From an uncultured Pseudoflavonifractor sp. (GTDB taxonomy: Bacteria; Bacillota; Clostridia; Oscillospirales; Oscillospiraceae): a stretch of 36,407 nucleotides of DNA. The stretch is from contig CANRZY010000009.1 of the NCBI GenBank assembly GCA_947644625.1, positions 1-36,407 of the forward strand. The letters are read 5' to 3'. Shown piece after piece: positions 2,128-29,734 of this stretch. A program made the position numbers and the translations under genes. How positions within the stretch are numbered: position 1 is the stretch's first letter; every line of letters begins with the position of its first letter. The notes beneath the pieces are model-generated. The model had not been told where the DNA came from and did no database searches. It was given only the letters and a program-made list of their open reading frames with translations.

Positions 2128-2370
2128 CTATTTGATTTCCTGTTCCAGAGCGTCAAATTCCGGGGTGGAGAAAAACTCTCCCAAGGTGATCTCAAGACCG
2201 TCACAGAGTTTTTTGATGGTCACTGCACCTGGATTTTGACTTTCTCCATTCAAAATACTTTTGATTGTTGATTGTGGTACTGCGGCAATATTGCTTAACC
2301 CGTTTGGCGTAATATGCCGCTCGTTACACAGTTGAACGATGCGATTGACGATTGCCGCACGGGTATCCAT
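2128..2370 (-). CDS. Small XRE-family helix-turn-helix regulator
   Basis: MDTRAAIVNRIVQLCNERHITPNGLSNIAAVPQSTIKSILNGESQNPGAVTIKKLCDGLEITLGEFF: typical Cro/C1 HTH. Confidence 0.88.
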   Translation of the reverse strand: MDTRAAIVNRIVQLCNERHITPNGLSNIAAVPQSTIKSILNGESQNPGAVTIKKLCDGLEITLGEFFSTPEFDALEQEIK

Positions 2371-2492: not shown

Positions 2493-2741
2493 ATGGACCA
2501 GCACATCGAGAATCTGTTCGAAAAGGCTCCGCCCTTTGCCGCCGGAGAGCTGTCCTTCCACCCGCTCTATACCCAGTACAGCGTTGCCGCCCAGACCCTG
2601 GAGGACATGATGGCGGAGTGCTTCGGCGGGGAGGTGGCCCGGCTTATGGAGGAATACGCCGCCGCCCAGTTTGAGCTGGAACGCTTTCATTGTCTCCACT
2701 TCTTTTATCAGGGATACCTGGCGGCAAAGGCGGAGGGCTAA
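2493..2741 (+). CDS. Small DUF6809-like protein of unknown function
   Basis: 82-aa ORF MDQHIENLFEKAPPF...ELERFHCLHFFYQGYLAAKAEG preceded by ttttggaggt; C-terminal aromatic/FxxG pattern resembles the protein at 14424. Family name from memory. Confidence 0.6.
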   Translation: MDQHIENLFEKAPPFAAGELSFHPLYTQYSVAAQTLEDMMAECFGGEVARLMEEYAAAQFELERFHCLHFFYQGYLAAKAEG

Positions 2742-2769: not shown

Positions 2770-5700
2770 TTATTTCTCCGTGTAAATACGGACGTCGTCA
2801 ATGTAGGAAGTCAGCATCTCGCCTTTATAGCTGTTGCAGGAAAATTGAAGAAGCCCCACACTCTCCTGCACCGTACGCAGCGGATATGTGCCCAGCAGTT
2901 TTCCATCCAAATAAAAGTGCATGTCCGCCCCGTCGATAATCATGCCGACGGTGTACCATACGCCCGTTTTCGGCTTGGCGACCTCTACGCGCGTCCCCGA
3001 CCCCGCTGTTTTATATACCTTCAGCGAGCCGCCCTCCAGGATCGAACCACAAATGGGGTCCTCCGTTTTCTCCTGCTGAAAAACGGCGGGAGCGGCATAG
3101 TAGCTGATGGTAGTATCAGAACGGATCTTTGCTTCAACGTACACCTTACCCGATGTGGAGACGCTGTCAAAACTTCTGAGGGCCTCCACATACAGCCGGG
3201 GCGTCTGCTGCTGCTTGGTCTGGACAAGCTTCAGGTATTGATTCCCCGCGTCCCCGGCCAGCTCTATCGTTCCGGCGTCCCCTTGGCAGGTATCAAAGCT
3301 CCACCCCTCCAGGTCAGCCAATTCCGCAGCCTCATCAAAGGTATCGTTGACGATATAGTTTCGTTCCACAAGGGCGTCAATGGCCGCCGTGATCCGGTCG
3401 GCGCAATCTCTCATGTCCTCAGGACCGCAATCCATACCGGTCTGAACCGCAGTTTGCAGCGCCGCATAGCTGTCGACGGTGTAATCCTCCCCATCGCACC
3501 CTTCCGCCGCTGCCAGCGCGTCCTCCAAGGCCTTCTGGGCGCCCGCATCAATTGCCGTTACCGTTATGGTAGCTTCCACCTTTGTATCCAGCCCTGCCAG
3601 CACGCCGTTTACCGTGACAGTACCGGCGGAGGCAAACTGCTCCCCGGTCAAACCGGACCAATCCGCCATTGCGTACCCATGACTTCCGTCGGCGTATTCT
3701 ACCGCGACAAACAGCGGCAGATCTCCGGGGATCTGCCCCTCCGTGGTTGAACACGCAACCGCGGCTACGCTCACGAGCTCCGGCGCCGTTGGGCGCTGCT
3801 CTTTTGTCAGAGCCTCAAACATTGCCTGGGCAATCATGGCATAGCCTTCGCACTGCATAACGCCGCCCGTTACCGGACCATAGCCATGCACACCGTCAGG
3901 AAACTGTGTATCAGGAGCCTCCGTGCCGCCCTGCGCGCCTGTAGCGCTCTTTGTCGCTTTCTGCACATCCACATATCCGGAATCCGTAATCAGCGCGATC
4001 TGCTTTTGAAGAGGAACAACATAATCATTCAACCGGTTCAATGTGGTCGTGTTGCTGGTCTTGAAATAGGTTGCGGAGGTCGCCACGTAGATTTGAACGT
4101 CAGGGTTGGCGTCCTGATAGCTCTTAATTAGGCTCAGTGCGTCGGGAACATAGTCAGCCTGATACTTGGTCCAATTTTCATCCTTACAGTCGTTTGTCCC
4201 CAGCATCAAAAGCACGATGTCCGGCTGATAGGCCAGGCTGGCCTGATACTCAGGCTTTTCGCCGGTGGTATACCCCGCCGCCTCTTTGCCGTTATTTCTT
4301 GTGCCGTTGTTTACCATTGTAGCGGCATTCCGGCCAAAATTTTGGACCTCATAGGTCTTGCCGGTTGTCTCTTTGGCGTCGTCCAGCAGCCTTTGAAGCA
4401 TGGCGGGGTACGTCTTGTCCGCGTCCACCTGCCCGCTCGACGTACCGTCATTGCCATAGGTGATACTGTCTCCGATGCAGGCAATCTTGATTTTATCGGG
4501 ATCATCGGGCTCTTCCGATCCCGTCCCCGCTTCCTGATAGACCCGGACGTCGTCTAAATAGAACGTCCCGTTTCCGTTCTTGTAATCATCAGAATAGAAC
4601 CGAAGCAGACCTATGGTATCTGCGGTATTGCGCATGGGATGATCTCCGCCAAGCTGTTCCCCGTCCAGATAGATCTGTATTTTTCCGCCGTTGATAATCA
4701 TACTAAGCGTATGCCACGTTGCGGTTTTAAAGCTGCCAACCGTTTTTTGGCTGCTGCTTCCCGCCGTGCTGTACACATTTACTTTGTTGTTTTGCAGGAT
4801 AGCGGCGCAGAGGATCGTACCGGGATAGGTCTGCCTGTTTTGAAACACAAAGGGCGCGCCATAGAAGGTCGCCGCCGTGTCGGAGCGTACCTTCGCCTCA
4901 ATATACATCTTACCAGAGGTCTCCGGAAAGCTTCTGAGCGCTTCTACCGACTTTGACTTTTCCTGTGTTGTCTGCGCAAGCTTCAGGTATTTGTTGCCGC
5001 CGTCCTCCTCCAGCGTCACCGTACCGACGGTCTCAATGAACTCCCAGCCCGCGTTCTCCAGGGCCGTCAGGTCGCTCGCGTCGTCAAAGCGGTCGTCGAC
5101 GATGTAGGCCCCTCTCTCTACCAGCGCGCTTATGGCGTTGGTGATCTGCGTGGCGGCAGCCCCCATGGCCTCCAGTGTGGCGGCCTCTTCGCCAGCTTTC
5201 ACCGCCTTTTTCAGTACCGCGTAGCTGTCCACCGTGTAGGAATCCGCCTTACAGCCTGCCGCTTCCTCCAACGCCGCCTCCAGGGCCTTCTGCTGGGGCG
5301 AATCCTCCCCCGATACGGTCACCACAGCCTTCGTGGAAACCTCCAGCCCCTTCAGCTTTCCCGTCACGTTTACCGTACCCACGGCGTCAAATCCAACTCC
5401 ATCCAGGGACCATTCCACCTGGGCGACGCCGGCGCCGCCCCCTTCATAGCTCACAGCTACAAAATCCGGCAGCTGCGGGCTCACGCCCAAAAGCGTAGAA
5501 CAGGCGTAGTCCACCGTCCGGGTAATGGCGGGCGCTTTGGGAACATCCGTCTTTGCCATAGCGTCGCCTATGGCGCGCGCAAGGATGGAATAGCCCGCCG
5601 CTTTGGGATGGACATTATCAAAGAACAGTTCCGTGGAAACGGCGGGGATGGCGGTATGGGTATCAATAAAGCCCACATCCGCAATCAGCGCGGCCTGTTT

Positions 5701-8700
5701 TTGAAGGGGCACCACCTGCTCATGGACCACGTCCGCCTGGATGTCAAAGCTGTTGCTTCCCGCCACCGGAGAAGCTGCCAGGTAGACCTTGGGGTGGGAG
5801 GGCAGGTCCTGATAGCTCTTAATAAGCTTCAGCGTATCGTCAATAAATTCCGTCTTCTGGGCATCCCAGTTATAGGGCTTGGAATCGTTGGTACCAAGCA
5901 TGATTACTACGATATCCGGCTGGAACTCCCGGCTTTGAGTATACTGGGTCTGAAATGCGTACCCTTTTTTCGCGTTATTTTTATCAATACCATCATACAG
6001 CATGGTAGCGCCGCTTATCCCGAAATTTCGTACGTCATAATTGTCGCCCAGATAAGTTTGCAGCTGTCCGTGAAGCTGCTCCTTTTCCGTTTTACCTTCG
6101 GTCGTAACGATCCGCTTGGCTTCGGTGATACTGTCTCCTACACAGGCCACCTTGATTTTGGCCACCGTCAATTTTCCAGTGGCCTGGATGCTATACGTAT
6201 TTGTTATCCCATTTGGAAGCCTCAAATCACTGGTAAAGCTGTATGTCCCAGCCGCACCGGCGTTGTAAGCGTCACAGGTCCACCCGACAGCCTCCATCTC
6301 CTGCCAGGAATCGTCGCCCAGCTTTACTCTCACCCTCGCAGGAAGAGCGGCTATCGCATCGTCCAGCGCCGTCCCAAGCGGAACCTCTGCCGTCACAGGG
6401 GCCGCATAGGAAACGTCGTTGTCGTCGGTAACGATCCCAAAGGATTCCTGATAAACGTTCAAATCATCCAGATAGAAAATACCCTTCGGACGGCTTGTGT
6501 CTTTATCATCAGAATAAAACCGCAGCATACCAAGCGTGGTCAGCGGATTACGCATGGGCAGGTCTGTCGCTATCCGCTCCCCGTTTACAAATACCTGCAT
6601 TTTTTGCGTCCCACTGTCCACGATCAGGCTGATAACGTCCCATTCTCCACTCTTAAAGGTACCGACCTGCTTCATGGAGGAGCTGCCCGCCTTATATGTG
6701 GCCATGATTTTTCCATCGTCGCGCAACGCAAGCGCTCCAAGGATCGTAGCAGAATCCTTGTTCTCGTACAAATATGGCGCGCCGTAGAAGGTTTTGGGCG
6801 TATCGGAGCGGACCTTTGCCTCAATGTACACCTTTCCGGAGATCTCTGTAAAGCTCCTTCTCGCCTCGACGGAGGCAGCTTTTTCCGTCTGTGCGATCTT
6901 CAGGTACTTGTTATCATCGCCCTCCAATGTTACGGTACCGTTGGTTTCAATAAATTCCCAACCATCCAACTCTCCACGCGTATCGACCTGAAAGTCGTCT
7001 ACGAGGATATTTTTCCGCCTTACCAGCATATCCGCCGCATTCTTCAACGTATTTACAAGGCCGACCGCCTGCTGCTCCCCGCCAACGCCGCTTTCCACAA
7101 TGGCTTCCGCCTGCCGGATCGCCGCCAGCACCGGGGCGTAGCTGTCGACGGTATATTCCCCGCCGTTCAGTCCCTTCGCCGCTTCCAGAGCGGAATTCAA
7201 TTCCCGCAGAGTTTCAGCGGATATAGGGATCTGTCTTGTTCCTTGCAGCTCGATCTCAAAAATAGAGGCGTTTCCGCTGTTGGTGGAGTTTCCTGACACG
7301 TTAACGCGCACATACCGCGCACCCACATTGTTTAAAGCGTCCTCCACAACGCCGGCTGTTGTATTATTGGAGCGGTCCACTACCTGCGTATAGGTTTCCC
7401 CATCCAAACTGGTCTCGACGGTGTACTTGTACGCGCGGCTGCCGCTGACAAACCAGCTTATGCCGATCCCGGTCAAGCTATAGGGCTCTCCCAGGTCCAC
7501 CTGGATCCACTGGGGATAGGAACCTCCGTTTGCCGCCCAGCGTGTATCAGGGTTTCCGTCAACGACGTACTCAGCCAGATTGCCGTTCTGGGACTCAGTG
7601 GAGGAAGCGGTCACCTTCAGTTTACGGTACTGCTTTACCTCCAGGATCGCCTGCTGAAGGGCCTCATAAGCCGTCAGCTTCTCTCCACGGGAGGCAGTTG
7701 TCAGGTCGATCTGCTTATACCGGTCATAAACCGGCACAAACCGGTCAATGGACGCTTGGTCATAGGGGGAAATGGGAAGCTCCGACGCAGCAAGGATAGA
7801 CCCGCACTCATCAAGGGTCGCCTGGAGCAGGGCGTCAATATCCCGCAACATCTCAACACTCCTCACCGCGCCCGCCAGCTGGGCATAGCCCCGGCGCACA
7901 GCGTCGGCCCCAGACTGACTCAGCGCCCTTTCTGCCTGGGCAAGCGCGTTTTCCAGGATCTCCTTCCCGGTGGGATCGCTCTCCTGGGAGGCCATGGCGG
8001 AGACCTCTTCCATATAAGCCTTCAGGACAGCCCCCGGCATAGAAAGAAGCTTGGGGGTCTCTCCCGCGTCCCGGTTATACACCGAATGATAGCTTTCCGC
8101 CGGGCCCTGGTTGGACGTACGCAGTCCGCCGGTATTGATCACGATACGGTCCACCGACACCCCCGCGTCCACCATATACAGCTTGACCATATGATAACCC
8201 CTGTCGGGCACATGGATGGTTCTGGTCAGCCGTTCGATCCCGTTTGTAACGTTTGTCTCCCAGGCCGTATTGTCCGAAACATGATTGCCTGAGAACACCA
8301 CCGGCTCGCCGTCGTCCACACCAATAGCCAGCCGCTGCCCCACCTCGTCCAGAGAGGGAACGCGGTAAACCGTGGTTTCAAAATCGCCCGCGGTCTGGAA
8401 GTAAACCGGATAGGTCAGGTAAGGCGCGCTCTTCACGTTATCCGCATAGTTCGGCGTACCCATGGGTCCTGCCGAAACCGAGGCTCCCGATCGGCCCAAC
8501 CCGTCAAACGCGAAAAATCCGACATCGCCGTCCTTGACGCAATCCGTATAATGCTCCGCCTCGATAGCCACATAGCCGTTGGCCTCTCCGTAGCCATTGA
8601 GCTGCTCCCGGACCAGGGCAGGATTGTTTACCCGCACCGCGATCTCTTTTGTTCCGCCCGCGCCCTGAATGGTCAGGGTGGCGGTCTGGTCTCCCGCCGG

Positions 8701-11700
8701 GAGAGTGGCCCAATCAATGGTGACAAACAGGCGCAGCTCATCATAAACCGTGCCCTCAGCCTCCGAAAGCTTTACCCAGGGCTGATCCGCCGCCGCCGTA
8801 AAAGCAAAGGCCTTCCCGCCCAGGTTAAATACGTCCACATAGCGGGTATCGTGCTGATAGGCAGAGAAGTCCAGAGCGCTGTCCTCCGCCTGCTCCATTT
8901 CCCCCTCCACAACAACGCCCAAGCCGCTGAGATAGGGCACGCTGGTTATAGCCGCCCCCTTCGGCTTTGCCGGGGCGATATTGGAATGGAGGAAATTGCC
9001 CGACTCCATAATGCCGTCCCATTTCCCGTCGGAAATGCGTTTATTGTAGTGGTCCTTGGCGTCGTCCTCCTGGGTCTGGGCCCAGTCGATCAGCTGGGTA
9101 TACAGGTTTGCCGCGGCGGTACGCCCCTGGCTGCTGTAGAGCTGGCTCTTCTGGGCGTAGTAATACTTCAGGTTATTATAATAAGACGCCTCAATGGGGT
9201 ACACCACATGCTGATAGAAGGCATCCCCCTGGGTTTTGTCCAGTCCGTTCAGAACGGCGGCGGCCCGTCCAAACAGCTCCTGATAATCGGCCAGGCGCTG
9301 CATGGATTCATCGCCGTAATTGACCGGGTCATATACCGCGCCGCGGGAATCGCTGAGGGTGGTATGCTCAGGCTTGCGGGAATAATTCAGGTGATAGTAC
9401 TCCCGCAGGATCTGCCCCACCTCAGCGCTGTCCGCATCGGGGAACCATTTCTCAGAAAGCTCCTGGAAAAAGCTGTCCCCGCCGTCCTGGCCCATCAGGT
9501 TGTCTGCCGTCCATTTCTCCATATCCCAGGCAATATCCAGGAAGAATTGCGCGCCCTTCTCATAGGGCTTGATATCGCCCACATTCAGCACCCAGAGCTG
9601 CTGTACTCCGGCCTCATAGGCCTTGCTCATCTCACTGAGGATCAGTGCGGGGGGAACGGAATCCATCCACAGATAGCCCTGCCTTCCGTTATACTGCAGA
9701 TGGTAGTATACGCCGTTCCCGCCTTCCCGGGCCTGTTCCTCCGCCGTGGGGAAATGCCGGATAAAGCCTTGGTTATCCTCCGCCCACACGATCGTCGTAT
9801 CCTCGGGCAGCTTCAGGCCCAGGTTATAAAGGGGCAGGACCTCTTTGTAGGGGACAAAGATGGGGAAGGACTCCTCGTTGGCGTCCTTCATCATTTCCAC
9901 CTGGCTGTCCACCACCGCCTGGAGCACATCCCGCTTTTCTTGATCGGTTTTCGCGTTGGCCGTCCGGAACCCGCTGTCATGCAGGCCCCGCATTCCCAGG
10001 GTGTAGGAGACCGGCACATCCTTATACCAGTCGATCCCCTGCCGCCAATAGGCGTCAATAAAGCCCCGGTTTTCGGTTATGCTGTAATCATACTTGGGGA
10101 AGCCGTATTTACCGGCGTTGTCGTTCATCCAGTTGTCGACCTTATTGCTTTTTCCCACGACCTCGGTCTGTGTCTTTCCTTCAAAATAACCCTGCGTCTG
10201 CAGGTAGTCAAACCAGTCCGCCGTGCCGTTCATCATCATGGGTTCGCAGTGGCTCGTGCCCACCACGACGCCGTATTCGGCCGCCAGCTGCCGGTTTTCG
10301 GGATATTTATTGAAATGCGCCACCGGGCCAAGACGGGGCTCGGAATGCATGGCGGTCCATAAATAGTTTGCCCTCAGACGCAGCAGCAGCTCATAGACCT
10401 TTTTGTAGGTCTCCGGCCCGATATTGTTTACGGGGTCGTTCCCGTTCTTTGTCCAGGCATACAAGCTTTGTTCGTCGTTAATGAAAATGCCGCGGTATTT
10501 GACAGAGGGCTCCCCCTGCACCTTGAGAGGCTCTGAAATAAAGACCCGGTTTTTCACCTCGGGCAGGATATCCCCCCAATAGTACCAGGGAGATACGCCA
10601 ATCTGTTCGGAAACATCGTAGATCCCGTAAATCGTGCCCCGCTTGTCGCTGCCCGCGATGACCAGCGCCCTGTCTACGCCCTCCATGGGCTCATCCACGA
10701 TCTTAATGATGTAGCTTTCCCACTTTCCCTCCAGATCCCTGGCCTCATCCAGCTTCCCAGCGGCCATCAGCTCTCCGATCATCTGACTGTTTTCCACCGA
10801 GCCCACGATAATGGCCAGGCCGGACAGCTCCGAGCGGTCATGCCGGACAAGGGGCTTGACCTCCGTGACCCGCTCTACATCCAACTGCAGATCCCCCACG
10901 GCACGGACGACCTGTTTATAGTCCGTCTCCTCCACATAAATATCCGGGACCGTAGTCCCCTGAAAGAGGACAAAGGCGCCCTCCGGAATCGGCTTTTCCG
11001 TTACGGTCACGGAAAATTTCGCGGTCCCATCCTCATACCCGTCGGCGGACGCGGTGACCGTCACAAGGGAGGTCCCCGGCTTTTTTCCGGTGACCCGAAC
11101 GGTATGTCCGTCCACCATGACGGAAACCACACCGGTATCGCTGCTGGCGGCAGTCAGTACGGCATTCTCCGGAACGGTAGTAAAGCGCACTTCCGCACTT
11201 TCCTCCTCCGGCAGGTCCTTTATGTCTCCGCCGCCCTGGATGGATACCGCTCCGGTAGCGCTTGATCCTGTGTCGGTATCCTTATCGCTCTCCTGGGGAC
11301 TGGGTTTCGGCCTTATCACCTGAGTGTCGGCGGGCGTCTGGATATGTTCCACCTTGGCGTTCCCGACCATCTCCACCGTTACCTTTTCGGCGTTCTCCTG
11401 GACCTTGAGCGTTGTAATACTGCTCTTTCCGGTAATCTTCACCTGTACGCCGTCCGCGCTTACGATCACAGAGTCAGCCTCGGTGTCCTTCAGCTTTACC
11501 GCTCCCTGTCCAGCGCCTCCGCCAATCAGCAATGTCCCCACTACGGTCCCGCTGACAGTAACTCCACCGGACGCCACCAGCACGAGTCCGGTCCCATTGT
11601 TCCCGTCCAGCGTATAGGTTCCAGGCTTCGCGATATAGGCGCTGATCGAACGGTTCAGGATGGTGACCACCTCAGCCCGGCTTATATCCTTCAGCGGCGC

Positions 11701-12249
11701 CAGACGCCCTTCAGAGGTCCCCTCCACGATCTTAGCCTCCATCAGCGCCGCCACGGCGCCTTTTGCCCAGTCCGCGACCTGTTCCCCGTCGGCAAAGCGA
11801 TCCACCGGCAGGTTTTCCACCGGCTCGATTGCCAACGACCGCGCAATCACCACCATGGACTCCTGACGGCTGATCCGATCATTTGGACGGAAAAGACCGC
11901 CGCTTCCCACCATGATCCCGGCCTCGGCGCATTTCAGCACCGCCTCGGTATACCAAGCGTCCCCCTCCACATCCGCGAAGGGATTGGAGGTCTGTTTCGT
12001 CAGCTTCAGCAGATTGGAAATGACCTGTGCCACCTCCGCGCGGGTAATGGGATCCCCTGGGCGAAACCTTCCATCGTATCCCTTCATGACCCCGTGCTGG
12101 TTCCAGGTCTCAATAGCCTGTTCCGCCCAATGCCCCTTTATATCAGCAAAGCTTTCCCCATTGCCCGGCGCGGCCACGGCTGGAACCATTCCCAACAGTA
12201 TGACCAACACCAAAAGCATGGATACCATTCGTTTCAACTGTTTTTTCAT
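2770..12249 (-). CDS. Giant (~3159 aa) secreted SLH-anchored multimodular CAZyme: SLHx3, Ig-like, GH115 alpha-glucuronidase, CBM32 (F5/8C), 2 SGNH/GDSL esterases, 3 LamG-like and several FIVAR-like modules
   Basis: ATG at 12249 with aaggaggagctccca upstream, then signal peptide MKKQLKRMVSMLLVLVILLGMVPAVAA. SLH motifs FADIKGHWAEQAI; GH115-like AIIVGSVENSQ..GSDKRGTIYGIYDVSEQIGVSPWYYWGD..YRGIFINDEQSLYAW; GDSIT/GTND/DxVH twice. Confidence 0.9.
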   Translation of the reverse strand: MKKQLKRMVSMLLVLVILLGMVPAVAAPGNGESFADIKGHWAEQAIETWNQHGVMKGYDGRFRPGDPITRAEVAQVISNLLKLTKQTSNPFADVEGDAWYTEAVLKCAEAGIMVGSGGLFRPNDRISRQESMVVIARSLAIEPVENLPVDRFADGEQVADWAKGAVAALMEAKIVEGTSEGRLAPLKDISRAEVVTILNRSISAYIAKPGTYTLDGNNGTGLVLVASGGVTVSGTVVGTLLIGGGAGQGAVKLKDTEADSVIVSADGVQVKITGKSSITTLKVQENAEKVTVEMVGNAKVEHIQTPADTQVIRPKPSPQESDKDTDTGSSATGAVSIQGGGDIKDLPEEESAEVRFTTVPENAVLTAASSDTGVVSVMVDGHTVRVTGKKPGTSLVTVTASADGYEDGTAKFSVTVTEKPIPEGAFVLFQGTTVPDIYVEETDYKQVVRAVGDLQLDVERVTEVKPLVRHDRSELSGLAIIVGSVENSQMIGELMAAGKLDEARDLEGKWESYIIKIVDEPMEGVDRALVIAGSDKRGTIYGIYDVSEQIGVSPWYYWGDILPEVKNRVFISEPLKVQGEPSVKYRGIFINDEQSLYAWTKNGNDPVNNIGPETYKKVYELLLRLRANYLWTAMHSEPRLGPVAHFNKYPENRQLAAEYGVVVGTSHCEPMMMNGTADWFDYLQTQGYFEGKTQTEVVGKSNKVDNWMNDNAGKYGFPKYDYSITENRGFIDAYWRQGIDWYKDVPVSYTLGMRGLHDSGFRTANAKTDQEKRDVLQAVVDSQVEMMKDANEESFPIFVPYKEVLPLYNLGLKLPEDTTIVWAEDNQGFIRHFPTAEEQAREGGNGVYYHLQYNGRQGYLWMDSVPPALILSEMSKAYEAGVQQLWVLNVGDIKPYEKGAQFFLDIAWDMEKWTADNLMGQDGGDSFFQELSEKWFPDADSAEVGQILREYYHLNYSRKPEHTTLSDSRGAVYDPVNYGDESMQRLADYQELFGRAAAVLNGLDKTQGDAFYQHVVYPIEASYYNNLKYYYAQKSQLYSSQGRTAAANLYTQLIDWAQTQEDDAKDHYNKRISDGKWDGIMESGNFLHSNIAPAKPKGAAITSVPYLSGLGVVVEGEMEQAEDSALDFSAYQHDTRYVDVFNLGGKAFAFTAAADQPWVKLSEAEGTVYDELRLFVTIDWATLPAGDQTATLTIQGAGGTKEIAVRVNNPALVREQLNGYGEANGYVAIEAEHYTDCVKDGDVGFFAFDGLGRSGASVSAGPMGTPNYADNVKSAPYLTYPVYFQTAGDFETTVYRVPSLDEVGQRLAIGVDDGEPVVFSGNHVSDNTAWETNVTNGIERLTRTIHVPDRGYHMVKLYMVDAGVSVDRIVINTGGLRTSNQGPAESYHSVYNRDAGETPKLLSMPGAVLKAYMEEVSAMASQESDPTGKEILENALAQAERALSQSGADAVRRGYAQLAGAVRSVEMLRDIDALLQATLDECGSILAASELPISPYDQASIDRFVPVYDRYKQIDLTTASRGEKLTAYEALQQAILEVKQYRKLKVTASSTESQNGNLAEYVVDGNPDTRWAANGGSYPQWIQVDLGEPYSLTGIGISWFVSGSRAYKYTVETSLDGETYTQVVDRSNNTTAGVVEDALNNVGARYVRVNVSGNSTNSGNASIFEIELQGTRQIPISAETLRELNSALEAAKGLNGGEYTVDSYAPVLAAIRQAEAIVESGVGGEQQAVGLVNTLKNAADMLVRRKNILVDDFQVDTRGELDGWEFIETNGTVTLEGDDNKYLKIAQTEKAASVEARRSFTEISGKVYIEAKVRSDTPKTFYGAPYLYENKDSATILGALALRDDGKIMATYKAGSSSMKQVGTFKSGEWDVISLIVDSGTQKMQVFVNGERIATDLPMRNPLTTLGMLRFYSDDKDTSRPKGIFYLDDLNVYQESFGIVTDDNDVSYAAPVTAEVPLGTALDDAIAALPARVRVKLGDDSWQEMEAVGWTCDAYNAGAAGTYSFTSDLRLPNGITNTYSIQATGKLTVAKIKVACVGDSITEAKRIVTTEGKTEKEQLHGQLQTYLGDNYDVRNFGISGATMLYDGIDKNNAKKGYAFQTQYTQSREFQPDIVVIMLGTNDSKPYNWDAQKTEFIDDTLKLIKSYQDLPSHPKVYLAASPVAGSNSFDIQADVVHEQVVPLQKQAALIADVGFIDTHTAIPAVSTELFFDNVHPKAAGYSILARAIGDAMAKTDVPKAPAITRTVDYACSTLLGVSPQLPDFVAVSYEGGGAGVAQVEWSLDGVGFDAVGTVNVTGKLKGLEVSTKAVVTVSGEDSPQQKALEAALEEAAGCKADSYTVDSYAVLKKAVKAGEEAATLEAMGAAATQITNAISALVERGAYIVDDRFDDASDLTALENAGWEFIETVGTVTLEEDGGNKYLKLAQTTQEKSKSVEALRSFPETSGKMYIEAKVRSDTAATFYGAPFVFQNRQTYPGTILCAAILQNNKVNVYSTAGSSSQKTVGSFKTATWHTLSMIINGGKIQIYLDGEQLGGDHPMRNTADTIGLLRFYSDDYKNGNGTFYLDDVRVYQEAGTGSEEPDDPDKIKIACIGDSITYGNDGTSSGQVDADKTYPAMLQRLLDDAKETTGKTYEVQNFGRNAATMVNNGTRNNGKEAAGYTTGEKPEYQASLAYQPDIVLLMLGTNDCKDENWTKYQADYVPDALSLIKSYQDANPDVQIYVATSATYFKTSNTTTLNRLNDYVVPLQKQIALITDSGYVDVQKATKSATGAQGGTEAPDTQFPDGVHGYGPVTGGVMQCEGYAMIAQAMFEALTKEQRPTAPELVSVAAVACSTTEGQIPGDLPLFVAVEYADGSHGYAMADWSGLTGEQFASAGTVTVNGVLAGLDTKVEATITVTAIDAGAQKALEDALAAAEGCDGEDYTVDSYAALQTAVQTGMDCGPEDMRDCADRITAAIDALVERNYIVNDTFDEAAELADLEGWSFDTCQGDAGTIELAGDAGNQYLKLVQTKQQQTPRLYVEALRSFDSVSTSGKVYVEAKIRSDTTISYYAAPAVFQQEKTEDPICGSILEGGSLKVYKTAGSGTRVEVAKPKTGVWYTVGMIIDGADMHFYLDGKLLGTYPLRTVQESVGLLQFSCNSYKGEMLTSYIDDVRIYTEK
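3800..4500 (-). other. SGNH/GDSL esterase domain 2
   Basis: KIKIACIGDSITYG; VQNFGRNAATM; IVLLMLGTNDCK; FPDGVHGYGPVTGGVMQCEGYAMIA. Confidence 0.83.
5550..6168 (-). other. SGNH/GDSL esterase domain 1
   Basis: KIKVACVGDSITEA; VRNFGISGATM; IVVIMLGTNDSK; FFDNVHPKAAGYSILA: all four SGNH blocks present. Confidence 0.85.
7240..7615 (-). other. F5/8 type C (CBM32-like) module
   Basis: VTASSTESQNGNLAEYVVDGNPDTRWAANGGSYPQWIQVDLGEPYSLTGIGISW...ARYVRVNVSG: canonical discoidin-domain pattern. Confidence 0.85.
8115..10980 (-). other. GH115 alpha-glucuronidase catalytic plus C-terminal region
   Basis: YYWGDILPEVKNRVFI, VKYRGIFINDEQSLYAWTKN, LRLRANYLWTAMHSEPRLGPVAHFNKYPENRQLAAEYGVVVGTSHCEPMM, VAIEAEHYTDCV..: family recognised from these motifs. 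Confidence 0.85.
11640..12155 (-). other. Three SLH (S-layer homology) domains
   Basis: FADIKGHWAEQAIETWNQHGVMKGYDGRFRPGDPITRAEVAQVI; FADVEGDAWYTEAVLKCAEAGIMVGSGGLFRPNDRISRQESMVVI; FADGEQVADWAKGAVAALMEAKIVEG..PLKDISRAEVVTIL. Confidence 0.92.
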
Positions 12250-12274
12250 TGGGAGCTCCTCCTTGTTTTTAATT

Positions 12275-12325
12275 ATTATCATTTCTCCCTTCGGGGAGAA
12301 ATGATAATGCTCTAGAGCATTATCA
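12275..12325 (-). promoter_or_regulatory. Overlapping palindromes in the 5' leader of the giant gene
   Basis: attatcatttctccc-ttcg-gggagaaatgataat (12275-12308) overlaps the perfect 24-bp palindrome tgataatgctctagagcattatca (12302-12325). Confidence 0.85.
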
Positions 12326-12507
12326 CGCTTCATGTCACATATACATGAAAGTTGTTTTTTATTATACCATCGTGGCCCATCACCGTCCACTAGTATACTA
12401 CCACATTTTTACCCACTTTTTTTGTGCATAATAACAATTTTGGCTTTCTTATTTTATGGCCTAACAGCATTATATATAAAGAAAATGAGCGCCTCTTGCC
12501 CATAAAA

Positions 12508-12541
12508 AAGAGCGTCGGCTCCTGCGGGAGCCGACGCTCTT
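12508..12541 (-). terminator. Strong rho-independent terminator (minus strand)
   Basis: aagagcgtcggctcc-tgc-gggagccgacgctctt; on the minus strand followed by TTTTTTATG. Confidence 0.8.
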
Positions 12542-12567
12542 ACCTGTTATATTCTTTTTGTCGGCAA

Positions 12568-12712
12568 TACCTTCGCTTGACAAGGGCAGACACGGTTTTG
12601 CAGGACCCAAGCCGCACCCCGCAGGCGGGCTGTCCCCCGGCAAGGGGGAGAACGCCGCCAGCGCACCCTTTGGGGTCCTCTGGGGCGTGTTTGCCCTTGT
12701 CAAGCGAAGGTA
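12568..12712. repeat. Nested palindromic element
   Basis: taccttcgcttgacaagggcagacacg (12568-12594) and cgtgtttgcccttgtcaagcgaaggta (12686-12712): 27-bp inverted repeat with one mismatch; inner aggaccc (12602-12608)/gggtcct (12673-12679) and tccccc (12633-12638)/ggggga (12644-12649). Confidence 0.85.
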
Positions 12713-12755: not shown

Positions 12756-13667
12756 CTATATCGGCCGGAGCTTTTTCCTGACCGCCTCAAACCATTCCGG
12801 CAGCGGGCACTCCACCTCCACCCGCCGCCCTGTCCGGGGGTGGGCAAAGCTCAGCTTTTTTGCGTGGAGACATTGGCCCGCAAGGCCGGGATAGGGCTTT
12901 TTCGCTCCGTAGACCGTATCCCCCAGCAGGGGATGGCCCAGAGAGGCCAGGTGGACCCGGATCTGGTGGGTCCGGCCCGTCTCCAGGCGGCACTTCAAAT
13001 AGGTATAGCCGGAATAGCGCTCCAATACCTCCCAGTGGGTCACCGCCCGCTTGCCTCTTTCCCGGTCAACGGCCATCCGTTTTCGGTCCGCCGGGCGCCG
13101 GGCGATGGGGGCGTCCACCGTGCCGCCGTCCTCCCGAAAGCCTCCCACGGCAATGGCGTGGTACTCCCGGTAAAGACTGTGGTCCTCCAGCTGTCCGGCC
13201 AGGGACAGGTGAGCGCCGTCGTTTTTGGCGGCGATGATAAGCCCTGAGGTGTCCCGGTCGATCCGGTGGACAATGCCGGGGCGCAGCTTTCCGTTGATTC
13301 CGGACAGGCTATTTTCGCAGTGATATAACAGAGCGTTTACCAAAGTGCCGTCGGGGTGCCCCGCCGCCGGATGGACTACCATACCCACCGGCTTATTGAC
13401 CACGATCACATCCTCATCCTCATAAGCCACGTCCAGGGGGATATTCTGAGGAAGAGCCTCCACAGGTGCGGGAGCGGGAAGCGCCACAATATAGACCTCT
13501 CCGGGAATGGTTTTTCGATTCTTCTTTACCGGCTCTCCGCCGCATTCTACCGCCCCGTCCTCCAGCAGCTTTTGAGCCCCGGACCGGGTCAGCTCCGGGA
13601 CCGTCCGGGCCAGAAACTGGTCGCACCGTTCCCCCGTCCGGTCGGCGGTAAGCTCAAGCCGGGTCAT
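12756..13667 (-). CDS. rluD: RluA/RluD-family 23S rRNA pseudouridine synthase
   Basis: S4-like N-terminus MTRLELTADRTGERCDQFLARTVPELTRSGAQKLLEDGAV; VVNKPVGMVVHPAAGHPDGTLVNALLYH; IVHRIDRDTSGLIIAAKN; THQIRVHLASLGHPLLGDTVYG. Start overlaps the lspA 3' end. Confidence 0.92.
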   Translation of the reverse strand: MTRLELTADRTGERCDQFLARTVPELTRSGAQKLLEDGAVECGGEPVKKNRKTIPGEVYIVALPAPAPVEALPQNIPLDVAYEDEDVIVVNKPVGMVVHPAAGHPDGTLVNALLYHCENSLSGINGKLRPGIVHRIDRDTSGLIIAAKNDGAHLSLAGQLEDHSLYREYHAIAVGGFREDGGTVDAPIARRPADRKRMAVDRERGKRAVTHWEVLERYSGYTYLKCRLETGRTHQIRVHLASLGHPLLGDTVYGAKKPYPGLAGQCLHAKKLSFAHPRTGRRVEVECPLPEWFEAVRKKLRPI

Positions 13668-14130
13668 GGCCGCCCTCCTTGTCCTTGTCCTTGTCCCACA
13701 GCAGCAGCACATAGAAGACCATGAGAAAGCCTCCCGCCACCACGCAGATATCCGCCACATTGAAAACGGCAAAGTCCATGAAGGTGGTCTCAAACATATC
13801 GGTGACAAAGCCCAAAAGGGCCCGGTCAATGAGGTTTCCCACCGCTCCGGCCAGAATGAGGGAGAGGGACAGCTTTCCCCAAGCGCCGGGAAAGTAGTTC
13901 TTTGCCAGCAGTACCGCCACCACGATGGAGGCCCCCAGGGACACCAGGGTGAGGAGCCAGGTCATACCGGAAAAGCTGGAAAAGGCGGCCCCGGTATTTT
14001 GGGTGTAGGTCAGATCTATCAAATGGGGAATAAAGGGGATGGACTCTCCCAGGGGGATGGAGGAGCGGACCCACCACTTCACCAGTTGGTCGAGCCCAAC
14101 CAGGCAGATCGGAAGAATATAATACAGCAT
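13654..14130 (-). CDS. lspA: Lipoprotein signal peptidase (signal peptidase II)
   Basis: LDQLVKWWVRSSIPLGESIPFIPHLIDLTYTQNTGAAFSSF; LILAGAVGNLIDRALLGFVTDMFE; FAVFNVADICVVAGGFLM. Confidence 0.95.
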   Translation of the reverse strand: MLYYILPICLVGLDQLVKWWVRSSIPLGESIPFIPHLIDLTYTQNTGAAFSSFSGMTWLLTLVSLGASIVVAVLLAKNYFPGAWGKLSLSLILAGAVGNLIDRALLGFVTDMFETTFMDFAVFNVADICVVAGGFLMVFYVLLLWDKDKDKEGGHDPA

Positions 14131-14134
14131 GGCT

Positions 14135-14329
14135 TCACTCCTTGTCCGTCCGGCCCAGGAGATAATCTGTGGTCACGTCAAAGAAATCCGCAAGGGCGAT
14201 TATCCCCGAAATACTTGGCTCCCGGTCTCCTGCCTCATAATATTGGTAGGAGCGCGTTGACACTCCAACACATTTTGCGCAGGACGCTTGCGTTTTTTTT
14301 CTTATTTTCCGTATTTCACGCAGGCGCAT
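14135..14329 (-). CDS. Small XRE-family HTH regulator
   Basis: MRLREIRKIRKKTQASCAKCVGVSTRSYQYYEAGDREPSISGIIALADFFDVTTDYLLGRTDKE. A TTG start at 14344 (aaggag upstream) is an alternative. Stop lies 4 nt before the lspA ATG. Confidence 0.88.
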   Translation of the reverse strand: MRLREIRKIRKKTQASCAKCVGVSTRSYQYYEAGDREPSISGIIALADFFDVTTDYLLGRTDKE

Positions 14330-14358
14330 ATAAAAGGGTGTCAAAATAAAACATCTCC

Positions 14359-14387
14359 TTGACATGAACCTAAGGTTCATTTATAAT
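14359..14387 (+). promoter_or_regulatory. Consensus sigma-A promoter with a palindromic operator in the spacer
   Basis: TTGACA (14359-14364), 17-nt spacer, TATAAT (14382-14387); palindrome atgaacct-a-aggttcat at 14364-14380. Confidence 0.85.
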
Positions 14388-14423
14388 AGTGAATGTGAGG
14401 TTCGCTGTTTTGGAGGGGAGCAT

Positions 14424-14663
14424 ATGGATGATATTCTAGCCTATCTGGAAAGCATTACCCAGCCCGACAGCATGGGGCCGGAGCATTCGGCGCTACTGCA
14501 AAAGGCCATCGCCCTGGAAGCCTCCATACAGGAGGCTCTTTCCCCGGAATATCTGGACCGGCTCTCCGAGGCCCAATGCGACATTCTCCGCGTTGAGCGC
14601 CGGGAGTGCTTCTCCCGCGGCTTCCGCCTGGGCGTCCAGCTACTGCTGGCGGCTCTGGAATGA
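14424..14663 (+). CDS. Small DUF6809-like protein of unknown function
   Basis: MDDILAYLESITQPDSMGPEHSALLQKAIALEASIQEALSPEYLDRLSEAQCDILRVERRECFSRGFRLGVQLLLAALE; ggaggggag RBS; FxxGFRLG C-terminus typical of the small family I recall as DUF6809. Confidence 0.65.
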   Translation: MDDILAYLESITQPDSMGPEHSALLQKAIALEASIQEALSPEYLDRLSEAQCDILRVERRECFSRGFRLGVQLLLAALE

Positions 14664-29670: not shown

Positions 29671-29700
29671 TTCCTATGCTTCCTTTCCTTTTGGATGTAT

Positions 29701-29734
29701 GTATAATTATACGCACACAGGAGCCGGTATGCAA
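29701..29734 (-). promoter_or_regulatory. Promoter with palindromic operator over the -10 (copy A)
   Basis: Minus strand TTGCAT (29734-29729) - 17 nt - TATAAT (29711-29706); palindrome gtataattatac 29701-29712. Confidence 0.7.

Follow-up and report, generated by a model that had tools for sequence, protein, structure and literature searches.

In SinR/SinI, a small protein serves as the dedicated antagonist of an XRE repressor, SinR, which possesses an interaction domain and controls a regulon; the two genes run in the same direction. The CI/MOR switch of TP901-1 places a repressor gene and the gene of a small partner divergently within less than 1 kb, with an operator overlapping the promoter of the partner, and MOR, which itself binds DNA, has been proposed to bind the HTH domain of the repressor (PMC7250872). 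In the phage TF-smORF modules, an HTH gene is again divergent from a small-protein gene; there the factor is an activator, a separate prophage cI is the target that the small protein inactivates, promoter specificity resides in the recognition helix, and the modules are orthogonal within one cell (PMC10432266). Here we analyzed a pair of genes that is divergent as in the two phage systems, encoding an XRE protein and a small DUF6809 protein. It forms locus 2 of a window of 36,407 nucleotides, the whole stretch of DNA that was analyzed. The pair seems not to have been described before, and DUF6809 (PF20648) is named in no open-access paper that we found, subscription papers lying outside the scope of the search.

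Architecture of the locus 2 pair

The genes and candidate regulatory sites of locus 2 (14135-14663) and of its two flanks are as follows.

13654-14130, minus strand: lspA, for lipoprotein processing (Peptidase_A8, E 1e-37), with the XRE stop codon 4 bp away
14135-14344, minus strand: putative XRE repressor gene, 69 amino acids, HTH only, TTG start
14359-14387, plus strand: consensus promoter of the DUF6809 gene, TTGACA-N17-TATAAT, sigma-70 score 12/12
14364-14380: candidate operator O1, ATGAACCTAAGGTTCAT, a perfect 8+8 palindrome overlapping the -35 element and the spacer
14390-14403: candidate operator O2, TGAATGTGAGGTTC, an imperfect 14-nt direct copy of O1
14424-14663, plus strand: DUF6809 small protein gene (protein P0001), 79 amino acids, acidic, matching PF20648
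14670-16424, minus strand: ABC transporter gene (ABC_membrane/ABC_tran), bordering the cassette on its other side and converging on the DUF6809 gene

An earlier note on this DNA had placed here a second XRE gene divergent from a second DUF6809-like gene, and open reading frames and Pfam matches confirmed both genes and their positions. P0001 matched PF20648 with 35.5 bits (E 1.8e-8), above the Pfam gathering cutoff of 27 bits. Its neighbor matched HTH_3 with 40.7 bits, likewise above the cutoff, and thus belongs to the XRE / Cro-CI HTH proteins; its nearest solved chain is 7t8i, the ICEBs1 Xre regulator. Translation of DUF6809 starts at the ATG at 14424, which is preceded by the Shine-Dalgarno motif GGAGG (14412-14416). 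The XRE start is most likely the TTG at 14344, because the alignment of orthologues begins there; for the same reason, an ATG at 14380, inside the operator, was dropped. At the other end of the gene, the last codons (GAC AAG GAG TGA, for DKE and stop) overlap the lspA Shine-Dalgarno sequence AAGGAGTGA, which exists at empty sites too. No phage genes were found around the pair, its flanks being lspA and the ABC transporter gene.

The promoter proved to be the full consensus that had been claimed, with TTGACA at 14359-14364, a 17-nt spacer, and TATAAT at 14382-14387. It is the sole 12/12 site within the 36-kb window, and 1,760 shuffled versions of comparable intergenic regions never reached this score. 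The earlier note had further described the spacer as being itself the palindrome. The palindrome, ATGAACCT-A-AGGTTCAT, is indeed perfect, and its extent had been given one base out: O1 runs from the final base of the -35 element to one base short of the end of the spacer. Even if 3 mismatches are allowed, the expected number of such patterns is 0.03 per window, and a chance origin of the promoter and the palindrome was rejected by the shuffles and the expected counts. O2 is 79% identical to O1 and lies 25 bp downstream, at about the expected transcription start; a half-site AGGTTC noticed previously at 14398-14403 is real and part of this imperfect copy. In its own genome, O1 is a single site, with one weak extra site at 3 mismatches. 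Binding of XRE at O1 would be expected to block the promoter fully.

Recurrence, operators, and gain and decay of the pair

The window holds another such pair, designated locus 1.

2128-2370, minus strand: XRE/HTH_26 gene (HTH_26, 34.7 bits, above the cutoff)
2417-2452: inverted repeat with perfect 16-nt arms, a candidate operator
2493-2741, plus strand: DUF6809-like gene, 82 amino acids

The locus 1 small protein scored 14.7 bits against PF20648, under the 27-bit cutoff, and gave no BLASTP match to P0001. Relatedness of the two small proteins had been set beforehand as a test of the system, and in a leave-one-out HMM search the locus 1 protein (E = 4.2e-9) was the only other significant match among the 233 open reading frames of the window; by this profile evidence, it is a true though distant DUF6809 homologue. 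A near-consensus promoter is absent from locus 1. The draft genome (1.9 Mb) contains six DUF6809 matches, and a divergent HTH gene stands opposite in 6/6. One of these paralogues (L003) has a like design with another operator, TTGACA-TGCGCATTTTTTATGCG-TATAAT, which is unique in the genome at 0 mismatches and has one 2-mismatch site. The latter, at 29698-29715 of the window, precedes a gene for an amino-acid-transport-like binding protein and may be a -10 palindrome that arose by chance. Elsewhere in the window, positions 2770-12390 form a 3206-aa open frame with SLH-like motifs at its start, which by eye resembles a multidomain surface protein of great length, parts of it glycosidase-like and GDSL-like. 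Between this giant gene and a pseudouridine synthase gene, the intergenic sequence at 12470-12712 is repeated, in part in inverted form, and contains a strong hairpin.

Of 150 genomes sampled from the host's family, 68 carried DUF6809, often in several copies, and XRE-DUF6809 pairs reached six per genome; CE91-St43 is one isolate with such pairs. Among 195 distinct DUF6809 genes, part of which had been collected with a profile built from paired genes, the HTH neighbor was divergent upstream in 93, same-strand upstream in 0, same-strand downstream in 1, and convergent downstream in 3. Paired genes amounted to 13/68 in the Pfam-search picks (3/30, 4/19, and 6/19) and to 70/108 among genes retrieved with P0001 or the wide alignment A2; the divergent orientation bias is independent of this sampling caveat. 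The tabulation of neighbors thus bore out an enrichment for HTH genes, and a strictly divergent one. Pairing clusters on the DUF6809 tree (21 changes versus 64 when shuffled), many DUF6809 genes are unpaired, most notably those that match Pfam best, and no XRE-DUF6809 fusion protein was found. In the cases inspected, unpaired genes often adjoin integrase, resolvase, or TnpV-like genes, names that were read from the sequences and not taken from a family search. Six XRE-less DUF6809 genes (L007, L009, L036, L037, L045, and L053) are followed at 17-139 bp by an integrase-like gene; the position just upstream of an integrase is where an excisionase gene is expected.

A promoter scoring at least 10/12 was located within 120 bp of 82% of 93 paired versus 7% of 99 unpaired DUF6809 genes, the corresponding values in shuffles being 3% and 1%. 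Inverted repeats over the promoter (score of at least 8) occurred in 37.5% versus 2% in shuffles, centered in the spacer or directly after the -10 element. The operators vary between pairs and are common to XREs with the same recognition helix, and their similarity grows with recognition-helix identity, including within bins of equal background identity. This correspondence assigns the palindromes to their linked XRE and supports the earlier suggestion of a recurrent divergent XRE/DUF6809 system whose operators differ between loci. Since the O1 and L003 operators are unique in the genome, the repressor probably controls its own locus alone. As matched repressors and operators in which a recognition-helix code is visible, the pairs form a natural set that could serve as orthogonal parts. 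The base following the -10 element is A in 44 of 72 pairs, which makes the -10 element pseudo-symmetric; E. coli and Salmonella have bidirectional promoters with such an element (PMC12825309, PMC10268837). A dispersed intergenic repeat of 70-90% identity flanks several pairs from different genomes on the side of XRE (L003:945-1184, L228:1443-1830, L225:3393-3673, and L230:3181-3325).

At the ABC-lspA junction, the pair is present in the window, in L234, and in L239, the last of which is without the ABC gene. It is absent from five congeners (L233, L238, L241, L243, and L244), in which the ABC gene is directly upstream of lspA, and decayed in two others, one retaining a truncated XRE only (L235) and the other a trace only (L236). 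Copies at unrelated sites align solely from the XRE stop to the DUF6809 stop (e.g., L136/L137 and L188/L201), which points to a unit of the two genes alone, some 540 bp in size; copying of this unit by recombination is possible. The insertion separates lspA-rluD from the upstream ABC gene (window 14131-14150; L234, L235, and L236), because the XRE C-terminus reads through the lspA Shine-Dalgarno sequence, and it may have placed lspA-rluD under the XRE transcript. Where a site is shared by two relatives (L130/L168, L130/L197, and L005/L100), the flanks are 80-96% identical, and the XRE 5' half, the operator, and DUF6809 drop to about 42-70%; the divergence is milder for L042/L044, L214/L217, and L035/L174. 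Candidate causes of this diversification in place are an arms race, avoided cross-talk between copies, and cassette exchange.

Proposed mechanism and competing readings

The residues following the HTH in XRE number only 10 at the median, and DUF6809 has a mean net charge of -5.9, negative in every paired copy. In paired relatives, dN/dS ranged from 0.06 to 0.47 for DUF6809 and from 0.03 to 0.44 for XRE, and by these ratios both proteins are under purifying selection. No HTH match was found in DUF6809; a PDB profile search returned chance-level matches only, and the DNA mimic ocr weakly matched 1 of 113 members (E 0.0075). Paired DUF6809 proteins had no match to toxin, defence, phage, or NCBI families, and neither P0001 nor its close alignment gave a match in phage, plasmid, and viral-contig searches.

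The sequences compared show the architecture and recurrence of the pair, the match between operator and recognition helix, the privacy of the operators, insertion as well as decay, and purifying selection, and the best explanation for these findings would be a self-contained two-gene switch with a private repressor and with DUF6809 as a candidate antirepressor, to which we give an even chance. The bare-HTH XRE would bind O1 and O2, in and just past the near-consensus promoter, and would thereby very probably shut off DUF6809. It would also repress itself, which we consider fairly likely, because the XRE start falls in the same interval as the operators. With no sensor domain and no other genomic site, relief would have to come from loss or dilution of the repressor or from another protein. 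The small, acidic DUF6809, linked to XRE at every one of these loci, is the most economical candidate for such a protein and, acting as the antirepressor of its own XRE, would complete a double-negative, two-state switch; this step, modelled on MOR and CI (PMC7250872), is proposed tentatively, as falling somewhat short of an even chance. The scheme gives the Pfam family DUF6809 a testable function in dominant gut bacteria.

The tentative grading reflects how the two genes are exchanged. Trees of XRE and DUF6809 pairs correlated with r=0.375 (1000 permutations, at most 0.113), and DUF6809 outpaced XRE in evolutionary change in 94-100% of comparisons. L096 and L100 have DUF6809 in common (84%), and not XRE (53%) or the operator; L005 and L103 have XRE (81%) and the operator in common, and not DUF6809 (32%). 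L130 and L166 likewise combine one operator with different DUF6809 proteins. This pattern suggests that XRE and its operator are exchanged as one block and DUF6809 as another, a partial exchangeability that argues against tight one-to-one recognition and weakens the antirepressor step. Against the switch explanation count, in addition, the DUF6809 genes that sit beside integrase or TnpV-like genes with no adjacent XRE and the lack of a near-consensus promoter at locus 1.

Independent exchange and the faster evolution of DUF6809 would suit a reading in which XRE merely silences DUF6809, and the released protein inactivates another protein elsewhere, the target being, for instance, a mobile element's repressor or recombination factor, whether the element is incoming or resident. 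The integrases, resolvases, and TnpV-like genes adjoining other DUF6809 genes are in line with this, as is a Vibrio phage small protein that is divergent from an HTH gene and inactivates a third protein, cI (PMC10432266). We regard this reading as rather unlikely: the loci share no conserved third component, and relief of the sensor-less XRE would be left without explanation.

More improbable is a toxin-antitoxin-like arrangement, in which DUF6809 would be harmful and XRE would silence and perhaps neutralise it. Its genes are divergent instead of forming one operon (6/6 in this genome and 93/195 in the sample, with a same-strand HTH gene in 1), unpaired DUF6809 genes lack an adjacent antitoxin, no toxin or defence family was matched, and DUF6809 is the partner that evolves faster, which would be unusual for a toxin whose target is conserved. 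What speaks for such an arrangement is that genomes hold many copies, that one site shows both gain and decay, that autoregulation, as we infer, is private, that the partner is HTH only, and that a strong promoter occurs only where the repressor is present. That the pair is a non-functional remnant of the immunity region of a phage or an integrative element, as the XRE matches to phage and ICE repressors and the empty and decayed sites might suggest, is highly improbable in view of the purifying selection on both genes, the intact promoters, and the finding of neither surrounding phage genes nor matches in phage, plasmid, and viral collections.

Comparison with described systems

The switch proposed here differs from TP901-1 CI/MOR in that DUF6809 has no HTH match, no phage is present, and no third, in-gene operator was seen. 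A phage lysogeny switch (CI/Cro or CI/MOR) has a repressor and, divergent from it, a second DNA-binding regulator, with both promoters carrying operators, and is located in a phage or prophage; DUF6809 was not recognized as such a regulator, and the pair is flanked by lspA and the ABC gene, with no phage or viral-contig match. Relative to the TF-smORF modules, the operator over a consensus promoter suggests repression, and neither a cI nor a prophage was seen. Unlike SinR, the XRE protein here is HTH only and has one site, and its gene is divergent from DUF6809. The pair resembles type II toxin-antitoxin systems in being a small, multicopy, apparently autoregulated set of two genes of patchy distribution, and it departs from them in its divergent genes, a strong promoter for the partner alone, and no toxin family match.

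The pair would work like a minimal repressor/partner switch and fails at least one defining test each of the phage switch and the toxin-antitoxin operon. It is possible, if doubtful, that such pairs represent a new class of micro-switch, portable and hypervariable, which would allow a single cell to hold several orthogonal switches of two states: cassettes of half a kilobase, devoid of mobility genes, located at gene ends in gut Clostridia and diversifying in place as phage immunity regions do.
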